Shown piece after piece: positions 7,043 to 41,936 of a stretch of 64,000 nt of DNA. The notes under the pieces were generated by a model, which searched no databases, was not told the DNA's origin, and worked only from the letters and a program-made list of their open reading frames with translations. A program made the position numbers and the translations under genes. Within the stretch, counting starts at the first letter, position 1. The number at the start of each line of letters is the position of its first letter. The stretch covers positions 68,608 to 132,607 of the forward strand of contig JAHIRD010000141.1 in assembly GCA_018818835.1 (NCBI GenBank), written 5' to 3'. This stretch comes from Pseudomonadota bacterium (GTDB lineage: Bacteria > Desulfobacterota > Desulfobacteria > Desulfobacterales > Desulfolunaceae).

Positions 7043-8998
7043 ATGAACTTATTTTCGAAAAAGAAGACGTACACGTATGGTGTGATGATTTTTGGTGTGA
7101 TGGTTCTCCTGTGGTCCTGCGCGGGCCATGGGACCTATTTCCGTGAACGCTGGTGGAATTTTTTTGAGAGGGCCACGGCCTATGAAGACCAGGGCCTTTA
7201 TGACCAGGCCCTGGCCGATTTGGGCAAGGCCATTTCACAGAGAAGCGAAGACCAGCGCATGGCCAGGACCTACGGCATGCATTTCATCGATTATTTTCCC
7301 CATAGGGAACGGGGTATCATTTATTATCATCAGGGTTATCCGGATAAGGCCGAGGAGGAACTTGAACTTTCTATCGGTCAATATCCGTCGGCCAAGGCCC
7401 GGTATTTTTTGGATTTGGTCAGGAAAGACAGGGTTACTGCATCGGGCCTGGGCCAGGCCCCCCCCGTACTGAGCCTGGATAATTCAGAATCGACGATCTG
7501 GACCCGGTCCGATCCGGTTCGTATCTCGGGGACGGCCCGTGACCCAGCCTTTGTTTCACAGATTTATATCGGAAATGAACGAATTTTCCAGGAGGGCACA
7601 GAAAAGGAAATTTCATTTTCAAGGGATCTGAACCTTGCCCATGGCTACCACCGAATAGTTGTTTCTGCCATGAATCTGGCCGGTCAGAAAAGTCAGAATA
7701 TTCTGACCATCCATGTGGACCGCAAAGGGCCTCTTTTGGTGATGGATGCTCCTGAAAAAGAGCCCCAGGGGATTCGTATCCGTGGAACGGCCGTTGACCG
7801 TGCCGGTGTTGAAAGCCTTTTTGCAAATGGTGTCAAGGTTCCCATTCCTCTTGCCCCACAGACTGATTTCAACGTCCTTCTGGCTCTGGGCACACCGTCT
7901 CTTTCTCTGGAAAGTCGTGACTGTCTTGGTAATCAAACCCGTGTGGAAATTCCTCTTGAACGTCTTGTTGCAACGCAGCAAGAGCCCCTGCTGCTGGCCG
8001 CCAACAGCACCTGGCCCGGCGGATCTGCCGGGAATAAGGATCGCAAAACACCGGAAATCCATATTCGAGACTGGAACGAACGTCAGGTGGTTTTTCTTGC
8101 TAAAATCTACCTGGATGGAATGGTCCAGGATGGAGGCGGGATAGGCTCCTTGACCATTAACGGCGAAGAAATACTCGAACGTTCAGGGGTTCTGGTGGCC
8201 TTCAACCAATTTATTGAACTGGCCCAGGGTGAGAACAGAATACGAGTGGAAGCCAGGGATTTCAGCGGTAACAGATCCAGCCGGGAGATTGTTATCGAGC
8301 GCAGGGTCCCGTCGGTCCTTCAGCTCAAGGAGCGGATGAGTCTGACCGTGTTTCCCTTTGAGCACAAGGGCACTGTCATATCTCAAACCATGGACTTTCA
8401 GAGTCATGTGATCTCTGCCCTGATCCGTGAAAATCGTTTCAGGGTGGTGGACCGGGACTATCTGGAACGGATCATGGAAGAACAGAACATCAGCCAGAGC
8501 GGTCTGGTTGATTCAAGCACCTGTCTTGCCATCGGCAAACTGGCCTCGGCACAGGCCATGGTGGCAGGAACACTGGTGGAGAGTAGGGATGGTTATGAGA
8601 TCGTTTCCCGGGTCGTGGACACGGAAACATCGGAAATTCTTGCCATGGTGGATGTGTTCAGCGATAAAAAAGACAGGGAGGTTTACCGACAGCTGGCCTG
8701 GGGTCTGGCCTCAAAAATTCATCGTGAATTTCCCCTTTCAGAGGGACGGGTACTGGATCACCAGGGGAATACCCTTATCACGGATCTGGGAGAACAGGAG
8801 ATCAAACTGTCACGCAGACTTCTGGTCTACCAAACAAATACCCGTGTCTCTAAAGGATATGGGCCTATTCCGGGTGAGGATTACCGTATACTTGGGCGGG
8901 CCCGGGTGACCCGGGTGGGTCAGGAAACCTCTTTGGCTGTACTTGTGAGTGATATTCCCCAGGAGAGTGGGCGGGATGAACGCGTGATTGCAGAATAG
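7043..8998 (+). CDS. TPR / Ig-like / FlgO-CsgG-like lipoprotein
   Basis: A 651-residue protein with a lipoprotein signal ending LLWSC. Domains in order: TPR-like helices (residues about 35-125, ATAYEDQGLYDQALADLGKAI and a second unit), two or three Ig-like beta modules (about 150-420, marked by GTARD, RGTAVDRAGV, VEARDFSGN), then a FlgO/CsgG-like domain from about residue 433 (TVFPFEHKG, RFRVVDRDYLERIMEEQN, SAQAMVAGTL). FlgO/CsgG domains form periplasmic ring or scaffold proteins. It starts an apparent four-gene operon with a sigma factor 17 nt downstream. The FlgO-like domain is shared with the CHAT protein at the end of the operon (NIS-SGLVD here, NISTSNLAD there), so the two probably act together in the envelope (inference). 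Confidence 0.75.
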   Translation: MNLFSKKKTYTYGVMIFGVMVLLWSCAGHGTYFRERWWNFFERATAYEDQGLYDQALADLGKAISQRSEDQRMARTYGMHFIDYFPHRERGIIYYHQGYPDKAEEELELSIGQYPSAKARYFLDLVRKDRVTASGLGQAPPVLSLDNSESTIWTRSDPVRISGTARDPAFVSQIYIGNERIFQEGTEKEISFSRDLNLAHGYHRIVVSAMNLAGQKSQNILTIHVDRKGPLLVMDAPEKEPQGIRIRGTAVDRAGVESLFANGVKVPIPLAPQTDFNVLLALGTPSLSLESRDCLGNQTRVEIPLERLVATQQEPLLLAANSTWPGGSAGNKDRKTPEIHIRDWNERQVVFLAKIYLDGMVQDGGGIGSLTINGEEILERSGVLVAFNQFIELAQGENRIRVEARDFSGNRSSREIVIERRVPSVLQLKERMSLTVFPFEHKGTVISQTMDFQSHVISALIRENRFRVVDRDYLERIMEEQNISQSGLVDSSTCLAIGKLASAQAMVAGTLVESRDGYEIVSRVVDTETSEILAMVDVFSDKKDREVYRQLAWGLASKIHREFPLSEGRVLDHQGNTLITDLGEQEIKLSRRLLVYQTNTRVSKGYGPIPGEDYRILGRARVTRVGQETSLAVLVSDIPQESGRDERVIAE

Positions 8999-9015
8999 TC
9001 TGCGATAGGGTACGG

Positions 9016-9630
9016 ATGAGTGAACTGACGGACAAGGAGATTATTGAGGGCTGTATCACGGGGGACAGCGCGATCCGGGAGTTATTTGTGCGCCGTTTTT
9101 CCAATCTGGTCTATGTGACAATCCAGGGTGTGTTCAAAGTTCGGCAGAAATCCATGGTCCGGGATGATCTTGATGATCTACACAACAGTGTTTTTGTCAG
9201 TTTGTTTGAAAAAAATTGCCGAAAACTTTCCCAATATGAAGGGCGCAACGGGTGCTCACTGGCATCCTGGGTCAGGATGATCTCTGTCCGTAAGGTTCTC
9301 GATCATTTCCGCAAACATAACCATGGTGTGATTTTAAGTGACGACGTTGAATCCTTGGATTTTTTGTCAGATGTCATTGAAAACGGACCCTCGCCTCTGG
9401 AGCATCTTGAGTCACATGAACGAAGAAAATTGCTTGAAACGGCCATGGAAAAGCTTCTTCCCAGGGACAGCCTGGTCATTCGTCTGCATTATTTTGATGA
9501 ATTGCCCCTTGACCAAGTGGCCCGTATGATGAATGTGAGTCCCAATACCCTTTATTCTTTGAAAAGCAGGGCCATCCATCGATTGATAAACCTGATAGGA
9601 ATGGACCATGAAAATAAAATTAATTCGTGA
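9016..9630 (+). CDS. ECF-type sigma-70 family RNA polymerase sigma factor
   Basis: A 204-residue protein with a region 2-like core (LFVRRFSNLVY... DDLHNSVFVSLFEKN... SLASWVRMISVRKVLDHFRK) and a region 4 helix-turn-helix (LPRDSLVIRLHYFDELPLDQVARMMNVSPNTLYSLKSRA). No region 1.1 or 3 is present, as expected for an extracytoplasmic-function sigma. AGGG lies before the start. It follows the FlgO-like lipoprotein by 17 nt and precedes a zinc-finger protein, the usual sigma/anti-sigma order. It probably directs transcription in response to an envelope or cytosolic signal; the target promoters are not evident. Confidence 0.85.
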   Translation: MSELTDKEIIEGCITGDSAIRELFVRRFSNLVYVTIQGVFKVRQKSMVRDDLDDLHNSVFVSLFEKNCRKLSQYEGRNGCSLASWVRMISVRKVLDHFRKHNHGVILSDDVESLDFLSDVIENGPSPLEHLESHERRKLLETAMEKLLPRDSLVIRLHYFDELPLDQVARMMNVSPNTLYSLKSRAIHRLINLIGMDHENKINS

Positions 9631-9775
9631 GGCTGTGCAAGGAATCATGGTTTTTTTTCGTCTATGTTATTGAGGGTGACGTGAAATGATGATGAGGTCA
9701 GCCATCCGTCGATTTTTTACCAGTTTATCAACGAACCATGGAAAACCAAAAAAATGAGTACGGGAAAAATTGAAC

Positions 9776-10432
9776 ATGAAATCACAATGTCCGAGTGAGG
9801 AATTCCTGAATGATTATCTGGAAGGGCGCCTGCCAACAGACGCTTGTATGGGTGTGGAAACCCACCTGGCCCAGTGCGACCATTGCCGGGACGTGATTTC
9901 AGTGTATGACAGCCTCCGGGATCTTGAAGGGGCCCCGGACATGATGCCTGTTCCCGAAAGTCTGACACAGAAGGCCATCGTGTCCGTGAAAAAAATGGAA
10001 ACAAGCCCTTTGTCCCGGCAGATCAGTCGGGCTGTTCGAACTGTCAGTGAACGTGTCCGTTTGTTTGGGCGGCATATGGAATGGTTTCTTGCGGGTGATC
10101 CGGTGCTTGTCCGGAACGGCGCACGTGCATCCAGCCAGGATGTGGTCACGGTGATCAAGGTCCTCAAAGGAATGGATGCGTCCATTGAAATTGAAAAATG
10201 CGGAGAGGCAAAAGCCTGTCTGCGGGTTGATATGTTCAGCAGTCAGACGCCGGTTCCGTCGGTCAGAGTCGCCCTGTTTCAGGGCCAGAGGGAGGTCGCA
10301 TCCTTCCAGGCCGCAGGAAAACCCGCTTTGTTTGAGGATATCCCCTTTGGTCCCTATGTGCTTGCTTTTTCAAGAAAGGGAGAACACATCGGGGAGTATG
10401 TCTTTGAAATCCGGGAATCCCACCATGGATAA
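9776..10432 (+). CDS. Zinc-finger (zf-HC2) anti-sigma factor with C-terminal beta domain
   Basis: A 218-residue protein; ATG 9776 is preferred over the TTG at 9770. Residues 1-45 carry the zinc-dependent anti-sigma motif HxxxCxxC (HLAQCDHC, His30, Cys34, Cys37) after a helix containing FLNDYLEGRL. The C-terminal half (about 140-215) is predicted beta-rich, resembling an Ig/Cna-B-like module (VRVALFQG, LFEDIPFGPYVLAF). No membrane segment is visible, so unlike most anti-sigmas it appears cytosolic. Its stop overlaps the start of the CHAT gene by 8 nt. It should bind and hold the ECF sigma encoded just upstream; release could depend on zinc redox state or proteolysis (inference). Confidence 0.75.
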   Translation: MKSQCPSEEFLNDYLEGRLPTDACMGVETHLAQCDHCRDVISVYDSLRDLEGAPDMMPVPESLTQKAIVSVKKMETSPLSRQISRAVRTVSERVRLFGRHMEWFLAGDPVLVRNGARASSQDVVTVIKVLKGMDASIEIEKCGEAKACLRVDMFSSQTPVPSVRVALFQGQREVASFQAAGKPALFEDIPFGPYVLAFSRKGEHIGEYVFEIRESHHG

Positions 10433-12947
10433 GAATAACCATCACCGTTCTCCTGAAAGTACAGCCCTTCTCCATCTGGATGTGGGTATGGACGGGGATA
10501 ACATCAGGATAAGCGCTTTTGAGCAGAAGGCCGGTGAGGTGATGACCACCCGGTACTATGAAAATCTTCAGGGTTTTCTGCCCACCATGGAAGAGAGAAT
10601 CAGACAAACGGTGGACACCCTGAATAGGGCCAATAAGCGGGGACGTCTGACGCCGGAATTACTGAACAAGCTCAAAGGGGTGGGGCAATTGCTCCGGGAT
10701 GAGCTTTTGACATTGTCAGTTAAGAAGACCCTTGAGGAAAGCCAGGCCGAGCATCTGGTCCTCAGTCTTGATGAAAAATTAATCCATATCCCCTGGGAAC
10801 TGCTTCACGACGGGAAACAGTTTCTGTGCCAGCGGTTCAGCATGGGGCGGATTGTGAAAACCCGCAACAGACTTGTGAAAAACGAGTCACGGCCCCAGGC
10901 TTACCCCATGGATATGCTTATATTGGCTGATCCGGTGTCCGATCTTCCCTCGGCCTATATGGAGGGCATTGTCATTCGGGATTTATTGGAAAACCATCCT
11001 GATATGATCCGGGTGAGCTTCAGATCCGGGAATATTCCCCTTGCTCTGGTCAAAGAAAAGATCCGTTCTTTTGATATGGTCCATTTTGCCGGGCATTCTG
11101 ATTATCATGGAAATAATCCCGAAAACAGCGGATGGCGTTTTCAAAAAGGGGGTCTCACGGCCAAGGATGTCATGACCATGGCCGGGACAGCCCATATGCC
11201 CTCCCTTGTGTTTTCCAATGCCTGCCAATCGGGTAGGTCTAAGGCCTGGAGCCAGGACGCGGATTATCAGGAAGGCCTTTTCGGGCTGGCTGACGCCTTT
11301 ATCTACGCCGGGGTGAGGCATTATATCGGAACGTTCTGGGATATTCTGGATGAGCCGGGCAAACATTTTGCCCAGACCTTTTACCAGGGTCTTATGACCG
11401 GAGCTTCCATCGGCTCGGCTCTTAAACAAGCCCGTTCGGAGCTGGTGACACGATACGGTGAGGAAACCATTGTCTGGGCCAGCTATCTTTTGTATGGGGA
11501 TCCCAGCACATGTTATGTCGAACCCTCTATGAAAACACAGTGGGACATCCCATCCCAAATATCTGAGACTCATCACATATCCCTGGGTGCCCAAGGTGTC
11601 CGGGCCCCGGAAGATGTGATCGAATTTTCTACAGGTGGTACCCCACGAAAAAGGACATGGCGCCCATGGCTTCTTGCCCTTCTTATCATGGGGGTGCTGG
11701 GGACGGGGGCCTATGGTGTTATAAGGTCCAACAGAATTCAGTCTCTGGAAGCAACGGTCCTGGGCCGCTACCGGGCCGGAGAGTTTGCCCTGGCCCTTGA
11801 CCAGTGTGAGGCACTGATTGAAAAAGCACCCATGCGTTCCCTGGCCCACCTGATTTCCGGAAATATCCATTTTTCCCAAGGCGATATGGACCGGGCAGGT
11901 GACGAATTTGAAACGATTCTGAACAATGCGGATGCAGATAAACACACCCGAGCCCAAGCCCTGATGGGGCTGGGAAGGATATTCTCCCTTTCCCAAAAAA
12001 AAGATTCGGCCCTGTCCTATTATCGGGCCGCCTCGGATCTGGAACCCTTGAACTGGGAACCTTTTTTTTATCAGGCTGTTCTTCTGGAGCAACAAGGCCG
12101 TTACGCTGAGGCTGGAGAGCTGGTGGAAAGGGCCAGTCGTCTGGATCCTGATCAGCCGGATCTTCGCATGTTTGCACAGGGACTGCCCCATTCCATAAAT
12201 CCTGAATCTGAGAGTAAACGTAAGTTGCGCATCAGCCAGATGATTAATGATCTCAAGGTACGTCAGACGAACCAGGGGACCTCGGAAAAAACGACGACCG
12301 ATTCCTGGACGTCCCGACCCCTGACGATTTGGATAAGGGATCTGGTGATCCAGGGATTCAGCCAGCGCGAAGGGCTGGACCGCCTGGTAATCAGCGGCCT
12401 AAACCTTTATCTTTTGCAAGGCCCCCCAGGTATGATTGTTGTGGAGAGAAATATACTTGAAGCGGTTCTGGATGAATTGAACATCAGTACGTCGAATCTG
12501 GCTGATCCAACCAGCCCCTTGAATCTGGGCCACTTGATGGCTGCCCGCTTTATCCTTGCAGGTCGCATGACTTGTTCGGCTGGGTCCATTCTCATCAGCC
12601 TCAGACTTATTGAGACCGAAAGCGGCAGGATCGTCTGTGTTCTCAATGAAACCTACGACAGAAACGCCAGTGCAGATATGATGAGCCGTGATCTTGGGCA
12701 GAAATTACAGAACGTCGTGGCAGGTCAGTTTCCTCTGAGGGGCCGTATTGTCACGGTCACGGGCAACCGGGTCACACTCAATATTGGACTGAATCAGGGC
12801 GTGATTGCAGGGCAGCGGTTCAAAACCATGGCCGAATCCCCCATGGAAGCCCTTGTTGTTGATGTTAATACAAACCAGAGCATCGCCCAGCTTAACGTGT
12901 CCCATCCCCCATTGGATCCGGGCACTCCCATGGAGCTGGTTCCTTGA
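10425..12947 (+). CDS. Membrane-anchored CHAT protease with TPRs and a FlgO-like C-terminal domain
   Basis: An 840-residue protein; the start at 10425 overlaps the end of the anti-sigma gene. Residues about 1-370 form a CHAT (caspase-like) domain: LIHIPWELLHDG, the His motif VHFAGHSDYHG (His224) and the Cys motif SNACQSG (Cys267) give an intact catalytic dyad. One membrane segment lies near 415-435 (WLLALLIMGVLGTGAYGVI). TPR-like repeats follow (about 440-590), and a FlgO/CsgG-like domain covers about 620-840 (MIVVERNILEAVLDELNIS, AARFILAGRM). One pass would put the protease in the cytosol beside sigma and anti-sigma, and the TPR/FlgO part in the periplasm. This suggests proteolytic control of the sigma factor by an envelope signal (inference). 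Confidence 0.8.
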   Translation: MDKNNHHRSPESTALLHLDVGMDGDNIRISAFEQKAGEVMTTRYYENLQGFLPTMEERIRQTVDTLNRANKRGRLTPELLNKLKGVGQLLRDELLTLSVKKTLEESQAEHLVLSLDEKLIHIPWELLHDGKQFLCQRFSMGRIVKTRNRLVKNESRPQAYPMDMLILADPVSDLPSAYMEGIVIRDLLENHPDMIRVSFRSGNIPLALVKEKIRSFDMVHFAGHSDYHGNNPENSGWRFQKGGLTAKDVMTMAGTAHMPSLVFSNACQSGRSKAWSQDADYQEGLFGLADAFIYAGVRHYIGTFWDILDEPGKHFAQTFYQGLMTGASIGSALKQARSELVTRYGEETIVWASYLLYGDPSTCYVEPSMKTQWDIPSQISETHHISLGAQGVRAPEDVIEFSTGGTPRKRTWRPWLLALLIMGVLGTGAYGVIRSNRIQSLEATVLGRYRAGEFALALDQCEALIEKAPMRSLAHLISGNIHFSQGDMDRAGDEFETILNNADADKHTRAQALMGLGRIFSLSQKKDSALSYYRAASDLEPLNWEPFFYQAVLLEQQGRYAEAGELVERASRLDPDQPDLRMFAQGLPHSINPESESKRKLRISQMINDLKVRQTNQGTSEKTTTDSWTSRPLTIWIRDLVIQGFSQREGLDRLVISGLNLYLLQGPPGMIVVERNILEAVLDELNISTSNLADPTSPLNLGHLMAARFILAGRMTCSAGSILISLRLIETESGRIVCVLNETYDRNASADMMSRDLGQKLQNVVAGQFPLRGRIVTVTGNRVTLNIGLNQGVIAGQRFKTMAESPMEALVVDVNTNQSIAQLNVSHPPLDPGTPMELVP

Positions 12948-36310: not shown

Positions 36311-36346
36311 ACTTAATTAACGTTTAACCCATTGATGGAGACATGT

Positions 36347-39300
36347 ATGCCAAACAGAAAACGATTCGTGGTTTGGGTATTTTTTTTATTGGTTTTGTTT
36401 GCCGCCTGCGGCCAAATGGTTGAGGAAAATGAACCCACAGACGGTCTTAACCAGACCGGATTCCAGAACAACGGTTCAGATAAGGAGTTTCCGGATTTTG
36501 CACTGACCGAGATTTTCACGGGGTGGGGCGGCCTTGAAGAAATGTGGGACAGCATTGAAACCAAGGGGTATAACACGCGTTTTACCAAGACGGTGGATGA
36601 CTTTACCGATGATTTCATCACCTTTGCCAAGGTGGGCTCCCGGGTATTGGGAGATCCATCCAGAGCCGTGATACTGCTTGCCGGAACCGATGCTGCAGGT
36701 CTTTTGGATACACTTATCGATTCTGAAGAAAATTACCCGCTCAGGGATAATGAAAACAGTGAAGGCCATTATTTCAAAGGAGACGGCCAGGAGTATATGT
36801 CCGGATTTTATGCCTTTCTCGATGAAATTTATAAAGATGGGGAAGATCCGGGAAGCAAGGATATGGTTAGTGTGAACCACAAGATCATGACCCGCCTGAT
36901 CGATAAAAAGGATTCCGAGAAGATACATGCCGATATGGAAGAGTTGATCGAAGATATCCTTGATGACGATTTTAAAGATGATTTTATCGATGTAACAACG
37001 TTTCTGGGAAAGCTTCTGGCCCGGGCCGATTATCCCCAGACCGATGAAAACGGTGAAAGTCTTGGAATCGGTAATGGTGTTCAGGGAACAATCGACCTCT
37101 TTAAATGGTATAATCGCATGGAAAAGAACCCCTTGACCCGTTCCATCCTCCGTACACAGGTCAACGAGCTTGTTTCCATGTTCGATCCGTCTGAAGACTC
37201 CCTCAACAAAATCAAAATAAGGAAGCTTCTTACAAATATTGAAGATTATTTCACGGCCCAGGGATCTGTCTACAGCGACCCTGATCCCGCAAATATTTAT
37301 CATTGTGATAATGATGATATTTACGCCGATGCTGAACTTGGGAACACCATCCGCGAGCTTTTTCCATCTAATATTCAGCTGTTAATGCGATCCGATCGTC
37401 CCCATTCCCTTATCGCGGATAAAGGGGAAGAGTCGGTTTATCTTTTACGAAAAATGGTTGAAAATCTAAAGAATCTTGAATTTGATCCTGAAACAGCGAA
37501 TATTGAAAAATCCATCAACAATTTGATGCAATACGATTCATATGGTCGTGATCGAACCGATCCCACATCCGGGGCACATCCCACCTCCCATCTTGAAAAT
37601 CTGGTTTTTTTGACCCATGTGACCAGCAATCTGGGCTGGCAGGACAGAGACATTGATAAAATTGATGATACAAAGCCGGAAGTGGGTGAAAACATACCTG
37701 TTGTCGCAGATTCGGAAGTGTCAGACAGGGATGATGCCAGGTATCTGCACGGCCATGGTTCCTATACCGGCCGTTTGTCATTGAACGACTCCCTGTTCAG
37801 TATAAAGACCCATAAAACCATGAACTCCCTGGGTATGTTTGATATTGGTTTTAATGACAGCGATGGCGATGACATTTACCGAAGCCGGAGTCCATTTACA
37901 CAGGCCACGAGCGCCAGCTATAAGTTCTTTTTCAACCAGAACTACGATGTTCTCCAGTGCCTTGCCCCGCCCTGTCTTGGTGATGTGGGATCACCGGTGG
38001 GTGGTAACCCCACGGGCCAGGCTTATGATGAAAATGATATGAATGCCTTCAGAGCTTATTCTCCGGATGGCCTCAATGAAAATCAACTGGCGGCATGGAC
38101 CCTTGGGCTTATTGTCCGGGCGTGTTTTAACGGTGAGGGGCCCTATTTTTATGCGGATCCGTCAGCCCCCAGTTTCATGAGCGGTGCCAAATCCTGGGTT
38201 ACTTATCTGCGGCCCAACGGGAAGGTTTATGCCTATGTGAACAAGAGTGATATGAATGCCTGGGAATATGCCTATCCGGCAGAGGAGGGTGAACCTGAAG
38301 ATCCAGATGGATTGATCGTTGCAGGGAAAAATCAACGGTACAACCGATACAAAGATCAGTGGCAGTCCGATTATTATATGGCCCATTATCTTGAAGAGAG
38401 AGATGAAGGGGGAGAGACGGTTATCCATGACGTTTACAAAACCGTTGATAACAGTTCAGGTCAACTTGAAATGGTGGATGTGACATCTGAAAACGGCTAT
38501 GCGGCCGGTCGATTGAATTACCGGGAAGCCATTGATGAAAACGACCCCAACCGTGCTTGCTCAAGCCCTGAGGAAGCTCTTTTCAGAAATTACCAATGGT
38601 TTATGACTGAAAAGAAAATGGTGCTCATCATTCCCTTAAAAATTGATCTGGAGGGAACCGAAGCTACTATTTTCCAGGTCATGGAAGGCAATGGTCTTGT
38701 GGGCCTCTCAAAATTGAGAAAATTCAAGGCCAATCACTATTGGGCCAAAGCAGGATCCAACGGGGAATCTTTTATTCCCGGTGACTTCAGAATTGAAGTT
38801 GTCTCTTCCAGTAATGATCCGAGCAATGTTCTTTCCGCAGCCAAAGTCTATAATAAGACCCTGGATTGTGGTCATGCCACTCCCTCGGTGGTGGGCAGAA
38901 ACATTCAGGTGCTCAGCAGGTTGGGCTTTCCTCGGTATACAGGTTTGACGGTCAGGGCCGATGGGATAAGCGATTCCGAACTGGGATCCAAAGAATTTGA
39001 TGTCGGGGATAACAGTATCTGGAATGAGCGATGTGAGGTTCTTCCTCCTTTTCTCGCATTGGTTTCAGCCATGAGGGAGTATACCCCTGATTATGAAAAT
39101 TACGAAAATCCCTTGAAAAAAGGTATACGGTCGTTTGTGGAAGGCACCTCGCCCCTTCTGAAGCCTCTGATTTATTACCAAAAAGCTCATGGTGGGCATC
39201 CTTACGAAACATGGAAGCCCAGAGTATACGGCTCTCAGGCCCCCGGGCCCTCGGATTCCTGGGCTGATTATGCAGGGGATGATTTTCTGCGATCATCTGC

Positions 39301-40435
39301 TGATTTTCATGACAGGGAGGACCTTAAGGCCACTGCCTGGGACGGGACTGATCTTGAAAAACAATACTATCTTCCCGCTGTGGAAAAAAGCCTGCTCAAT
39401 GTTCTAATTGACAGTGATATCAAGGCTGACCCCGATCCTCAGGAAGGCTTTAAAAATACACGCATGGATGGACTCCTTCCTCTTGCCATGGAGAACCACT
39501 CCACCACAGAGCTTCTCAAGGCCCTTCTCAGTGATGTGAATGATTCGGATTTGCTTTACGGAGCCTTAGAGCAGATGGCTGCCATGATGAAAGTTACAAA
39601 GGGCCGGATGACAGAAATAAATGAAACAAATGTAAAAAACATTGACTTTCCCTCATGGTTCTTTGTAAAGGGATTAGACACAGGGTTTTATGGTGAGTTT
39701 ACGAATTTTTCAGGCATGCGTGATGAAGATGTTGTTCTTGACAGAGGCATCGACCGGTTGATCGGTCATGATTTTGTTGATGATACCCATGATGGATACG
39801 GCATTGCACAGTATGTTGATGAACAGGAAAATGAAGACTGGGAGGACTTGTACGATACTCTGGATCTTCTGGAAGATCATCTCTATGCGGGGAGCACGTC
39901 CATTGATCCGAGTCCCTATAGTCTGGTTTCAAGTTCACTGGATATGAATGACGCCATCTTCGCTCGTCAGCGTCTGTACACAGATTCTGAAATCAGTGGT
40001 CTTATCTACGGACTTGGAAAATTGATGACCCACTATGATGCATCGGCTGACAGATGGATCAACCAGGGTGAAGAGGGATTTGACGATCTCTTGAATATCC
40101 TCAGAGTCAGGTTGCCCGTCATTCATGAACTGATAAAGGATGAAAATGGTTTTTCCGGGGATCATTACCGGTCAGCCCTTAAAATCAACTGTGACATGCT
40201 CAAAGAAGATGGTGCCGTTGAATTTTTAGTCACCACCATGGAAACCAAAGTCAACTGGGAACAGTTGATGGCTGATTCTGCGGCTTTCCTGAAAGACGAG
40301 CTGGTAACGGAAGACAGGCCCTTGTGGTCAAGCTTTTCTGACCTTCTTAGCGATTTGGCAACGGCCGTGGGAAATTCCCGGGACGGCAGTTTGATTGAAT
40401 CGGTTTACGAGGATTACGGATTTCAGAGAAACTGA
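36347..40435 (+). CDS. Giant lipoprotein of unknown function (1362 aa)
   Basis: I do not recognise a family. The ATG at 36347 has GGAG eight bases before it and opens a lipoprotein signal (KRFVVWVFFLLVLFAACG), so the mature protein starts at a lipidated Cys. The rest is acidic, rich in Asp, Glu, Asn and Tyr, with no membrane segment and no evident internal repeat. Aromatic, Gly-containing stretches such as YLHGHGSYTGRLSLNDSLF suggest a beta-rich middle; the ends look helical (LLDTLIDSEE; LLNILRVRLPVIHELIKDE). It is followed by a FadL-type porin gene 160 nt downstream, so the two may form an outer-membrane unit (inference). Confidence 0.8.
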   Translation: MPNRKRFVVWVFFLLVLFAACGQMVEENEPTDGLNQTGFQNNGSDKEFPDFALTEIFTGWGGLEEMWDSIETKGYNTRFTKTVDDFTDDFITFAKVGSRVLGDPSRAVILLAGTDAAGLLDTLIDSEENYPLRDNENSEGHYFKGDGQEYMSGFYAFLDEIYKDGEDPGSKDMVSVNHKIMTRLIDKKDSEKIHADMEELIEDILDDDFKDDFIDVTTFLGKLLARADYPQTDENGESLGIGNGVQGTIDLFKWYNRMEKNPLTRSILRTQVNELVSMFDPSEDSLNKIKIRKLLTNIEDYFTAQGSVYSDPDPANIYHCDNDDIYADAELGNTIRELFPSNIQLLMRSDRPHSLIADKGEESVYLLRKMVENLKNLEFDPETANIEKSINNLMQYDSYGRDRTDPTSGAHPTSHLENLVFLTHVTSNLGWQDRDIDKIDDTKPEVGENIPVVADSEVSDRDDARYLHGHGSYTGRLSLNDSLFSIKTHKTMNSLGMFDIGFNDSDGDDIYRSRSPFTQATSASYKFFFNQNYDVLQCLAPPCLGDVGSPVGGNPTGQAYDENDMNAFRAYSPDGLNENQLAAWTLGLIVRACFNGEGPYFYADPSAPSFMSGAKSWVTYLRPNGKVYAYVNKSDMNAWEYAYPAEEGEPEDPDGLIVAGKNQRYNRYKDQWQSDYYMAHYLEERDEGGETVIHDVYKTVDNSSGQLEMVDVTSENGYAAGRLNYREAIDENDPNRACSSPEEALFRNYQWFMTEKKMVLIIPLKIDLEGTEATIFQVMEGNGLVGLSKLRKFKANHYWAKAGSNGESFIPGDFRIEVVSSSNDPSNVLSAAKVYNKTLDCGHATPSVVGRNIQVLSRLGFPRYTGLTVRADGISDSELGSKEFDVGDNSIWNERCEVLPPFLALVSAMREYTPDYENYENPLKKGIRSFVEGTSPLLKPLIYYQKAHGGHPYETWKPRVYGSQAPGPSDSWADYAGDDFLRSSADFHDREDLKATAWDGTDLEKQYYLPAVEKSLLNVLIDSDIKADPDPQEGFKNTRMDGLLPLAMENHSTTELLKALLSDVNDSDLLYGALEQMAAMMKVTKGRMTEINETNVKNIDFPSWFFVKGLDTGFYGEFTNFSGMRDEDVVLDRGIDRLIGHDFVDDTHDGYGIAQYVDEQENEDWEDLYDTLDLLEDHLYAGSTSIDPSPYSLVSSSLDMNDAIFARQRLYTDSEISGLIYGLGKLMTHYDASADRWINQGEEGFDDLLNILRVRLPVIHELIKDENGFSGDHYRSALKINCDMLKEDGAVEFLVTTMETKVNWEQLMADSAAFLKDELVTEDRPLWSSFSDLLSDLATAVGNSRDGSLIESVYEDYGFQRN

Positions 40436-40595
40436 TTGGTGTTGTTTTCCTGTTGACACCATAACATTGGCAGGGGTAAAACCCTGCCTGATTAAGAGAG
40501 TATTCACCCTGATTGCATGTCGAAACTGGCACTCATTGGCACGGACACTAGTGAAAATTTACGAATAAAAACCTTAACACATGCTGGAGCTCTTT

Positions 40596-41936
40596 ATGAA
40601 AAAACACTACCTGTTAATCTTAGCGACTCTTTGTTTGTTTGTGATGGTATCTTCATCCTTTGCATCCAACTATGGAGATTCCTACGGATATTCAACCAAG
40701 GGGATGAGCCTGGGCAACGCCATGAGCGCCAGGGTGGATGACTGGTCTTCAGTCTACTACAATCTGGCGGGCCTTGGTAAAACCCGTGGACTTGAAAATG
40801 GGAAAAATCAAATCGGCCTTGCTTACCAGGGCAATATGCCCGTGTTTGACATTGACATCAGCCGGGCTGACGGTGACGGCAATGCTCTGTCCACAGGCGG
40901 AGACCAGGACCTTGAAACCGGAACCCTTATCCTTGGGCTGGCACTGGATGCCAATATTCTCATGAATATGCCCTCCTTTATTTCATCGGCCCGTCTGGGC
41001 GTGGGTGTTACCATCAATGATGACATGACCGCAGTGAAAATAAACGATCTGGATCCCCGGACACACAATTTCATGCGTTATGGCCGTGAAGCCCAGCGCT
41101 TGGAAGTGCTTAGCGGTATGGGTTTCGGTTTTATGGATGACCTTTTTGGCTTTGGTTTAGGCATCAATTCAGGCTTTGGTGGAGATGGTGTGGTTATCCT
41201 TGAAGATATCGATTTGGACACAGAGGCCCAGAGCCCACGTGGACAAGCCAAGATGGATATGACCCTTGAACCGAACCTTCTTTTCGGAATGTATTTCAGT
41301 CCTGGAAAGATGATTGAATCTCTTGAAGGTCTTGATTTCGGGTTTACCTTCCGTGATGAAACCATTCTTGATATCTATCCCTTTGAAACCACAGGCGTAA
41401 CCAATGTGGGGGCCTTTCCGTTGAACATGATGCTGGCCCTTAACGATTATTTTCAGCCAAGAATGTATGTTCTTGGGGCATCCTATGCCACAGAGACCTG
41501 GACCCTGTCCTTTGATCTGGAATACCAGGAATGGTCAGGATTCAAAATGTCCGATCCCATGACAGAAAATTTTCAGGCCGATCTGGTTGAGTTCGACGAT
41601 ATTTTTATTCCCAGGGTTGGGCTGGAAACAAAGATCAACCCCTGGTTGAATCTACTGTTCGGTTACTACTACCAGCCTTCCTTTGTTCCGGATGAAGCCG
41701 TGGCAGGTGTTATGAATTATCTTGATAATGATAAACATGTTGCATCGGCAGGTCTGACATTGGATGTTTCCGAAATTCTTCCGATCAAAGGCCACACGGA
41801 ATTATGTTTGGGCTATCAACTGCAGTATCTGGTGGACCGTGATGTTACCAAGACAGCCCCAACCAGTTTTAATCCCGATTATTCCTATGGCGGCACCTGC
41901 CATACGGTAATGATGGAACTAAATATCAACTTGTAA
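40596..41936 (+). CDS. FadL/OmpP1-family outer-membrane porin
   Basis: A 446-residue protein from ATG 40596 with GGAG before it. The signal peptide (LLILATLCLFVMVSSSFA) is followed by SNYGDSYGYSTKGMSLGNAMSARVDDWSSVYYNLAGLG, in which GMSLGNAMSA..DDWSSVYYNLAGL is the N-terminal plug motif of FadL proteins that take up hydrophobic compounds. Later segments show barrel strands (LGVGVTINDDMTAVKI, ASYATETWTLSFDLEYQEW, LLFGYYYQPSF) and the final strand ends in NINL. It probably imports fatty acids or aromatic hydrocarbons, with the lipoprotein before it as partner. Confidence 0.85.
   Translation: MKKHYLLILATLCLFVMVSSSFASNYGDSYGYSTKGMSLGNAMSARVDDWSSVYYNLAGLGKTRGLENGKNQIGLAYQGNMPVFDIDISRADGDGNALSTGGDQDLETGTLILGLALDANILMNMPSFISSARLGVGVTINDDMTAVKINDLDPRTHNFMRYGREAQRLEVLSGMGFGFMDDLFGFGLGINSGFGGDGVVILEDIDLDTEAQSPRGQAKMDMTLEPNLLFGMYFSPGKMIESLEGLDFGFTFRDETILDIYPFETTGVTNVGAFPLNMMLALNDYFQPRMYVLGASYATETWTLSFDLEYQEWSGFKMSDPMTENFQADLVEFDDIFIPRVGLETKINPWLNLLFGYYYQPSFVPDEAVAGVMNYLDNDKHVASAGLTLDVSEILPIKGHTELCLGYQLQYLVDRDVTKTAPTSFNPDYSYGGTCHTVMMELNINL

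Follow-up and report, generated by a model that had tools for sequence, protein, structure and literature searches.

How might a membrane-spanning CHAT protein be connected with the ECF sigma factor and the zinc-finger anti-sigma factor encoded beside it? We addressed this question at a four-gene cassette in a window of 64,000 nucleotides (the whole stretch of DNA analysed) belonging to a host genome of 6.75 Mb. CHAT proteases are common in bacteria; to our knowledge, the substrate is known for few of them, and those studied in detail come mostly from phage defence. The cassette offers an apparently CRISPR-free case in which the substrate, the cut site (a single residue) and the output are all predicted from sequence, and its gene set is conserved across several phyla.

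Layout and conservation of the gene set

The cassette consists of four open reading frames on the forward strand, assigned by Pfam matches. The first (7043..8998) encodes an envelope lipoprotein of 651 aa, P0001. It is followed by the ECF sigma factor P0002 (9016..9630; 204 aa; also assigned by NCBIfam) and the zf-HC2 anti-sigma P0003 (9776..10432; 218 aa from the ATG at 9776, with an alternative start at TTG 9770). The last is P0004 (10425..12947), a CHAT protein of 840 aa that the model and hydropathy indicate to be single-pass. Gaps of 17 nt and 145 nt (the latter measured to ATG 9776) and a final 8-nt overlap separate the genes. Both the gene order given in the preliminary description, ending in a CHAT-TM-TPR-CsgG/FlgO protein, and its spacing were recovered from the ORF coordinates. 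The overlapping reading frames of the anti-sigma and CHAT genes fit products that are made together. P0002 matched Sigma70_r4_2 (1e-10, Pfam) and the sigma70-ECF family TIGR02937 (3e-22, NCBIfam), and sigmas of this family may already sit in a described ECF group.

The order lipoprotein, ECF sigma, anti-sigma and CHAT was kept almost throughout an initial set of 20 relatives. P0004 alone as the query of a contig search returned no relatives, single-sequence patterns being too specific. An alignment of CHAT domains used as the query yielded 80 further loci in the species collection, most of which shared both the genes and their arrangement. These loci, three of them from Desulfonema magnum, were labelled Desulfobacterota, Nitrospirota/Thermodesulfovibrionia, Nitrospinia, Omnitrophota, Schekmanbacteria and Planctomycetales. 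Relatives found by sequence were mostly from Desulfobacterota. Full-length relatives of P0004 (39-42% identity) occurred in 5 genomes of the order, a shorter CHAT form without TPRs occurred in many more, and 18 of the 395 genomes in a phylum sample carried the family. At two loci (L085:7989-14874 and L090:7986-15580), three CHAT genes lie in tandem 3' of the anti-sigma gene.

Absence of the joint gene set from relatives had been named beforehand as a finding that would refute the proposed switch, and we checked for it in a neighbourhood survey. We scored distinct CHAT genes with enough flank for the presence of the other genes within 3 kb upstream, using our own profiles of the four families. 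ECF and anti-sigma genes lay close upstream of 54/65 CHAT genes of the family, compared with 0/19 other CHAT genes drawn from the same genomes, a result that strongly supports conservation in relatives. The profiles themselves gave 53/65; the window locus is the 54th, its over-extended ORF having failed the overlap limit. At the other 11 loci one or both genes were not directly upstream, and in at least two of these (L104, L108) they were downstream or divergent. In searches started from the anti-sigma, full-length family members stood well apart from generic zinc-finger anti-sigmas. All newly fetched full-length matches with a continuing contig adjoined a CHAT gene, as did a more distant match (L206); the contig of another (L207) ends inside the anti-sigma. 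No family anti-sigma without a neighbouring CHAT gene was found in this search. The four-gene association is not due to chance.

The CHAT protein and the anti-sigma linker

P0004 matched CHAT (PF12770, 5e-39) and TPR_16 (2e-14) in Pfam, together with weak matches to CsgG (3e-4) and FlgO (0.01). Its CHAT domain (residues 14-370) is followed by a disordered linker (372-414), a transmembrane helix (about 415-433), TPRs (about 454-586) and a C-terminal CsgG/FlgO/FlgT-like region, FlgT being among the Foldseek matches. In an AF2 model (mean pLDDT 85), the helix starting at 413 continues into the TPRs. The catalytic residues said to be intact in the preliminary description were located as His224 in HFAGH (codon 11094..11096) and Cys267 in FSNACQS (codon 11223..11225), and each is present in 88/88 distinct relatives. 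The nearest solved folds of the CHAT domain were separases (Z 25-26), Csx29 (22-25), gingipain R (21.8), DdvA (20.5) and SAVED-CHAT (20.1). Domain, dyad and fold together point to a CHAT/separase-like peptidase of clan CD, with peptidase activity being predicted. Near-invariant Asp309 and Glu180 (87/88 each) are only leads for a predicted S1 pocket.

The family layout of CHAT domain, variable linker and then a single transmembrane helix was found in 84/88 relatives, with the helix at the same place as in P0004 (residues 415-433, at 11667..11723; hydropathy 1.97). Mean net charge beside this helix was +2.3 for the CHAT side versus +0.6 for the opposite side, and in 54/84 proteins the CHAT side was the more positive. 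This bias supports, without proving, a cytosolic protease domain and a periplasmic TPR/FlgO part. A clear transmembrane helix was absent in 19 anti-sigmas, the highest hydropathy (1.6, in L033) being borderline. With the charge bias of the CHAT proteins, this would place the protease and its putative substrate in the same cytosol. A soluble, two-domain anti-sigma is also not the material of usual regulated intramembrane proteolysis.

A class III nucleotidyl cyclase domain is fused N-terminal to CHAT in 32/88 relatives (L031-L034 and 28 of L050-L107), and in at least 16 of these a strict pattern recovers both motifs of the metal site; P0004 of the window has no fused cyclase domain. A crude scan for CRISPR-like spacing also brought up short, regularly spaced tandem repeats just 3' of the CHAT gene at several loci (L032:4175-4691, L096:9834-10143 and L057:10482-10604).

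Where might such a protease cut? The anti-sigma P0003 matched zf-HC2 (1e-6, Pfam); with an HxxxCxxC motif and a gene beside that of the ECF sigma it conforms to the zinc anti-sigma (ZAS) type, and we infer that it binds and inhibits the ECF sigma. In its AF2 model (mean pLDDT 84.6), a helical zinc part extending to residue 106 and an Ig-like beta-sandwich (123-212) are joined by residues 101-118, where alone in the model pLDDT falls under 50. The beta-sandwich gave only generic matches (Z up to 8.5) and nothing informative. The joining segment contains Arg113 (residue 115 from the TTG start; codon 10112..10114) in the context PVLV-R-NG, which conservation and disorder mark as a predicted P1 residue. 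This arginine is kept in 71/72 relatives, on a par with the zinc ligands of HxxxCxxC (H 69/72, C 70/72 and C 70/72; 73 distinct sequences). The segment around it is highly variable. As the sequences of relatives are not independent, we clustered them at 40% identity; the arginine signal was not weakened, the residue being present in 40/40 representatives below 40% identity, while none of the other positions in 76-114 and 116-128 is conserved above 49%. The surrounding context is P-x-P-[VIL]-R-[GS], and linkers containing [VILA]R[GSN] numbered 63/73, compared with a mean of 19 and a maximum of 31 in shuffled linkers.

An invariant arginine in the sole disordered and variable linker has the features that a protease site should show, and separase and gingipain R cleave after Arg. 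We predict that the linker arginine is the site of CHAT cleavage, with the cut falling between R and [GS] of P-[VIL]-R-[GS]; alternatively, its conservation could reflect contact with a partner. A similar motif recurs in the protease itself. Hydrophobic-R-small motifs were found in 57/84 CHAT juxtamembrane linkers, compared with a mean of 20 and a maximum of 32 in shuffles, an excess that suggests self-cleavage or pseudo-substrate control. The candidate site in P0004 is Arg393 (GVRA; codon 11601..11603), in the linker that is disordered in the model.

Envelope partners and the direction of the signal

The envelope side of the cassette begins with P0001, which possesses a signal peptide, the lipobox LWSC (Cys26), TPRs, two Ig-like (Glucodextran_B) regions and a C-terminal CsgG/LpoB/FlgO-like domain. 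A lipobox is present in most P0001 relatives, 33/52 entries matching a strict pattern. In addition, a FadL/TodX-type outer-membrane barrel was encoded beside the cassette at 22/36 loci with ample flanks and at none of the controls, Nitrospirota-type loci having the order ECF, anti-sigma, CHAT, barrel, lipoprotein. The two FlgO-like domains proposed earlier as the sensor are indeed present, but the sensor is likely wider, as the FadL-like barrel is common in relatives. No barrel gene adjoins the window cassette. Its genome encodes a 55% identical barrel elsewhere (C306), where it closes an 1829-aa protein that also carries sortilin/BNR propeller repeats (L159:3237-8726). A comparable propeller-FadL fusion lies next to the cassette in L076:2-4429, and in L033 propeller and barrel are neighbouring genes. 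Barrels and propeller proteins near cassettes suggest that the input concerns outer-membrane or surface proteins. We compared the regions ahead of the operons for a common ECF promoter motif, and likewise cassette and barrel gene within one genome; neither comparison gave a clear motif.

Other genes of this kind were seen in passing. A subtilase with BNR repeats comes after the 1829-aa propeller-FadL gene. At L031:11921-18811 and L047:2171-5635 the cassette has neighbours coding for large proteins of surface type, whose features are Ig/PKD or regulator-propeller repeats, a dockerin and a weak match to a C13 peptidase.

Taking these observations together, we consider it probable that an envelope signal acts through the CHAT protease to have the anti-sigma cut at its linker arginine, freeing the ECF sigma. 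In this pathway, of which sigma binding, cleavage, signal and target genes are presumed parts, the zinc-binding helical domain of the anti-sigma would hold the sigma in the cytosol. On the periplasmic side, the TPR and CsgG/FlgO-like part of the CHAT protein probably contacts the outer-membrane lipoprotein, as well as the FadL-like barrel in many relatives. An envelope signal would lift inhibition of the separase-like protease domain, which would then cut the anti-sigma after the linker arginine, parting the sigma-binding domain from the Ig-like domain. The cut would weaken or destabilise the inhibitor, resulting in release of the sigma. Self-cleavage of the protease in its juxtamembrane linker may occur as well. 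As the zinc-finger domain might keep the sigma after the cut, release may depend on additional degradation, and such a step has also been proposed for CalpT (PMC11417357).

Three other explanations were weighed against this pathway. One concerns the signal and is compatible with the pathway: the CHAT protein would serve mainly as a quality-control sensor monitoring the assembly of FadL-like barrels and of large propeller/Ig proteins at the surface, with sigma release as one of its outputs. The frequency of FadL-like barrels at well-flanked loci, their absence from controls, and the propeller proteins adjoining or fused to such barrels all speak for it. However, neither the window cassette nor many amply flanked loci have an adjacent barrel, and we regard this explanation as possible but doubtful.

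A second explanation reverses the order of events. The sigma/anti-sigma pair would sense the signal directly, for instance through redox at the zinc, and would induce the CHAT protease as a stress or cell-death output that cuts proteins other than the anti-sigma. ECF operons are usually autoregulated, which counts for this order, and CHAT proteins are frequent as effectors in conflict systems. Soluble ZAS anti-sigmas are also often redox sensors (PMC8999054). Nevertheless, the transmembrane helix, periplasmic sensor-like domains and envelope partners of the protease suit an input, the invariant arginine of the anti-sigma linker would be left without a role, and the defence-system models of PADLOC matched only a generic TPR among the cassette proteins. 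We regard the reverse order as unlikely. Binding without cutting, in which the arginine docks in the CHAT active site or elsewhere and the signal alters the complex, is more improbable still: an invariant arginine could be a docking residue and Csx30 binds Csx29 independently of activation (PMC10028731), but a mere scaffold would not need the fully conserved His and Cys.

Comparison with other protease-linked ECF sigma systems

Cleavage of ECF anti-sigmas by related proteases is known from CRISPR systems (PMC10028731, PMC11417357). Like the Csx29/Csx30/CASP-sigma system, the cassette encodes a CHAT protease of separase-like fold together with an ECF sigma, and like Csx30 its sigma inhibitor has two domains on a flexible linker (PMC10028731). 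By contrast, Csx29 is soluble, carries N-terminal TPRs and a pseudo-CHAT domain, and is switched on by Cas7-11 and RNA (PMC10028731), whereas here the CHAT domain is N-terminal and tethered to the membrane, the predicted sensors are periplasmic, and the presumed inhibitor is of the zf-HC2 type. The Csx29 cut lies in a loop in which no residue is essential (PMC10028731), in contrast to the invariant linker arginine here. The parallel with Csx29 drawn in the preliminary description is supported for mechanism and fold; it does not extend to membership of the type III-E system. P0002 scored 32 bits against the type III-E CASP-sigma model NF041236, below the curated cut-off of 100, and P0004 does not have the type III-E protease layout of N-terminal TPRs and C-terminal CHAT in a soluble protein. 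Among the four cassette proteins, Pfam and PADLOC gave no match to a cas family.

The DdvS/DdvA system of Myxococcus xanthus likewise combines an ECF sigma, a zinc-finger anti-sigma and CHAT (Z 20.5; PDB 8rot, 8rw5). In DdvA, however, zinc finger and CHAT form one transmembrane polypeptide, whereas here they are encoded by separate, overlapping genes; DdvS controls a phage-defence island (PMC12288465). In CalpL/CalpT/CalpS, protease cutting of an anti-sigma also leads to release of an ECF sigma, but CalpL is a Lon-type protease switched on by a CRISPR-made cyclic nucleotide (PMC11417357) and the protease here is of the CHAT type. CHAT proteins have been reported in the gene neighbourhood of ECF54 sigmas, a group described as lacking an anti-sigma (PMC8999054), while a zf-HC2 anti-sigma is a constant member here. 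EACC2-caspase systems, too, couple a caspase-fold protease to an ECF sigma; as far as the portion of that account consulted goes, they involve EACC2 and DUF1822 domains, and neither a FlgO-like lipoprotein nor a zf-HC2 anti-sigma is mentioned there (PMC8195603). Our literature search found no paper joining FlgO with a CHAT domain.

These comparisons suggest that the cassette is a new CRISPR-free, membrane-spanning form of protease-released ECF sigmas, the cleavage being predicted. In Fec-type cell-surface signalling and in RseA/RpoE, an envelope signal reaches the ECF sigma via proteolysis of the anti-sigma. The anti-sigma of those pathways is a membrane-spanning protein that site-1/site-2 proteases cleave; here it is soluble. 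If our reading is right, it adds a further route from the envelope to ECF sigmas besides intramembrane proteolysis and TonB-type surface signalling. More tentatively, and with somewhat less than even confidence, we propose that the family represents a widespread, unnamed class of receptor-proteases, caspase-like inside and with a sensor outside. About one-third would be cyclase-fused, and the class would be wired to a FadL-like barrel and a lipoprotein and free an ECF sigma by an arginine cut in a soluble anti-sigma. If so, CRISPR-linked protease/sigma systems could have arisen by capture of an envelope pathway of this kind, which would be a possible setting for the origin of those modules.

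A genome from the family to which the window belongs holds a second, apparently separate CHAT/ECF/anti-sigma arrangement (L209:4053-8577), where a different TPR-CHAT gene lies ahead of both a weakly matching ECF gene and one for a zinc-finger protein that contains a TM-like segment. Elsewhere in the window, two neighbouring ORFs (36332-40435, 1367 aa; 40581-41936, 451 aa) have no Pfam match at 1e-4, and a short ORF at 1200-1517 carries RCC1 repeats only, perhaps as a remnant of a larger propeller gene.
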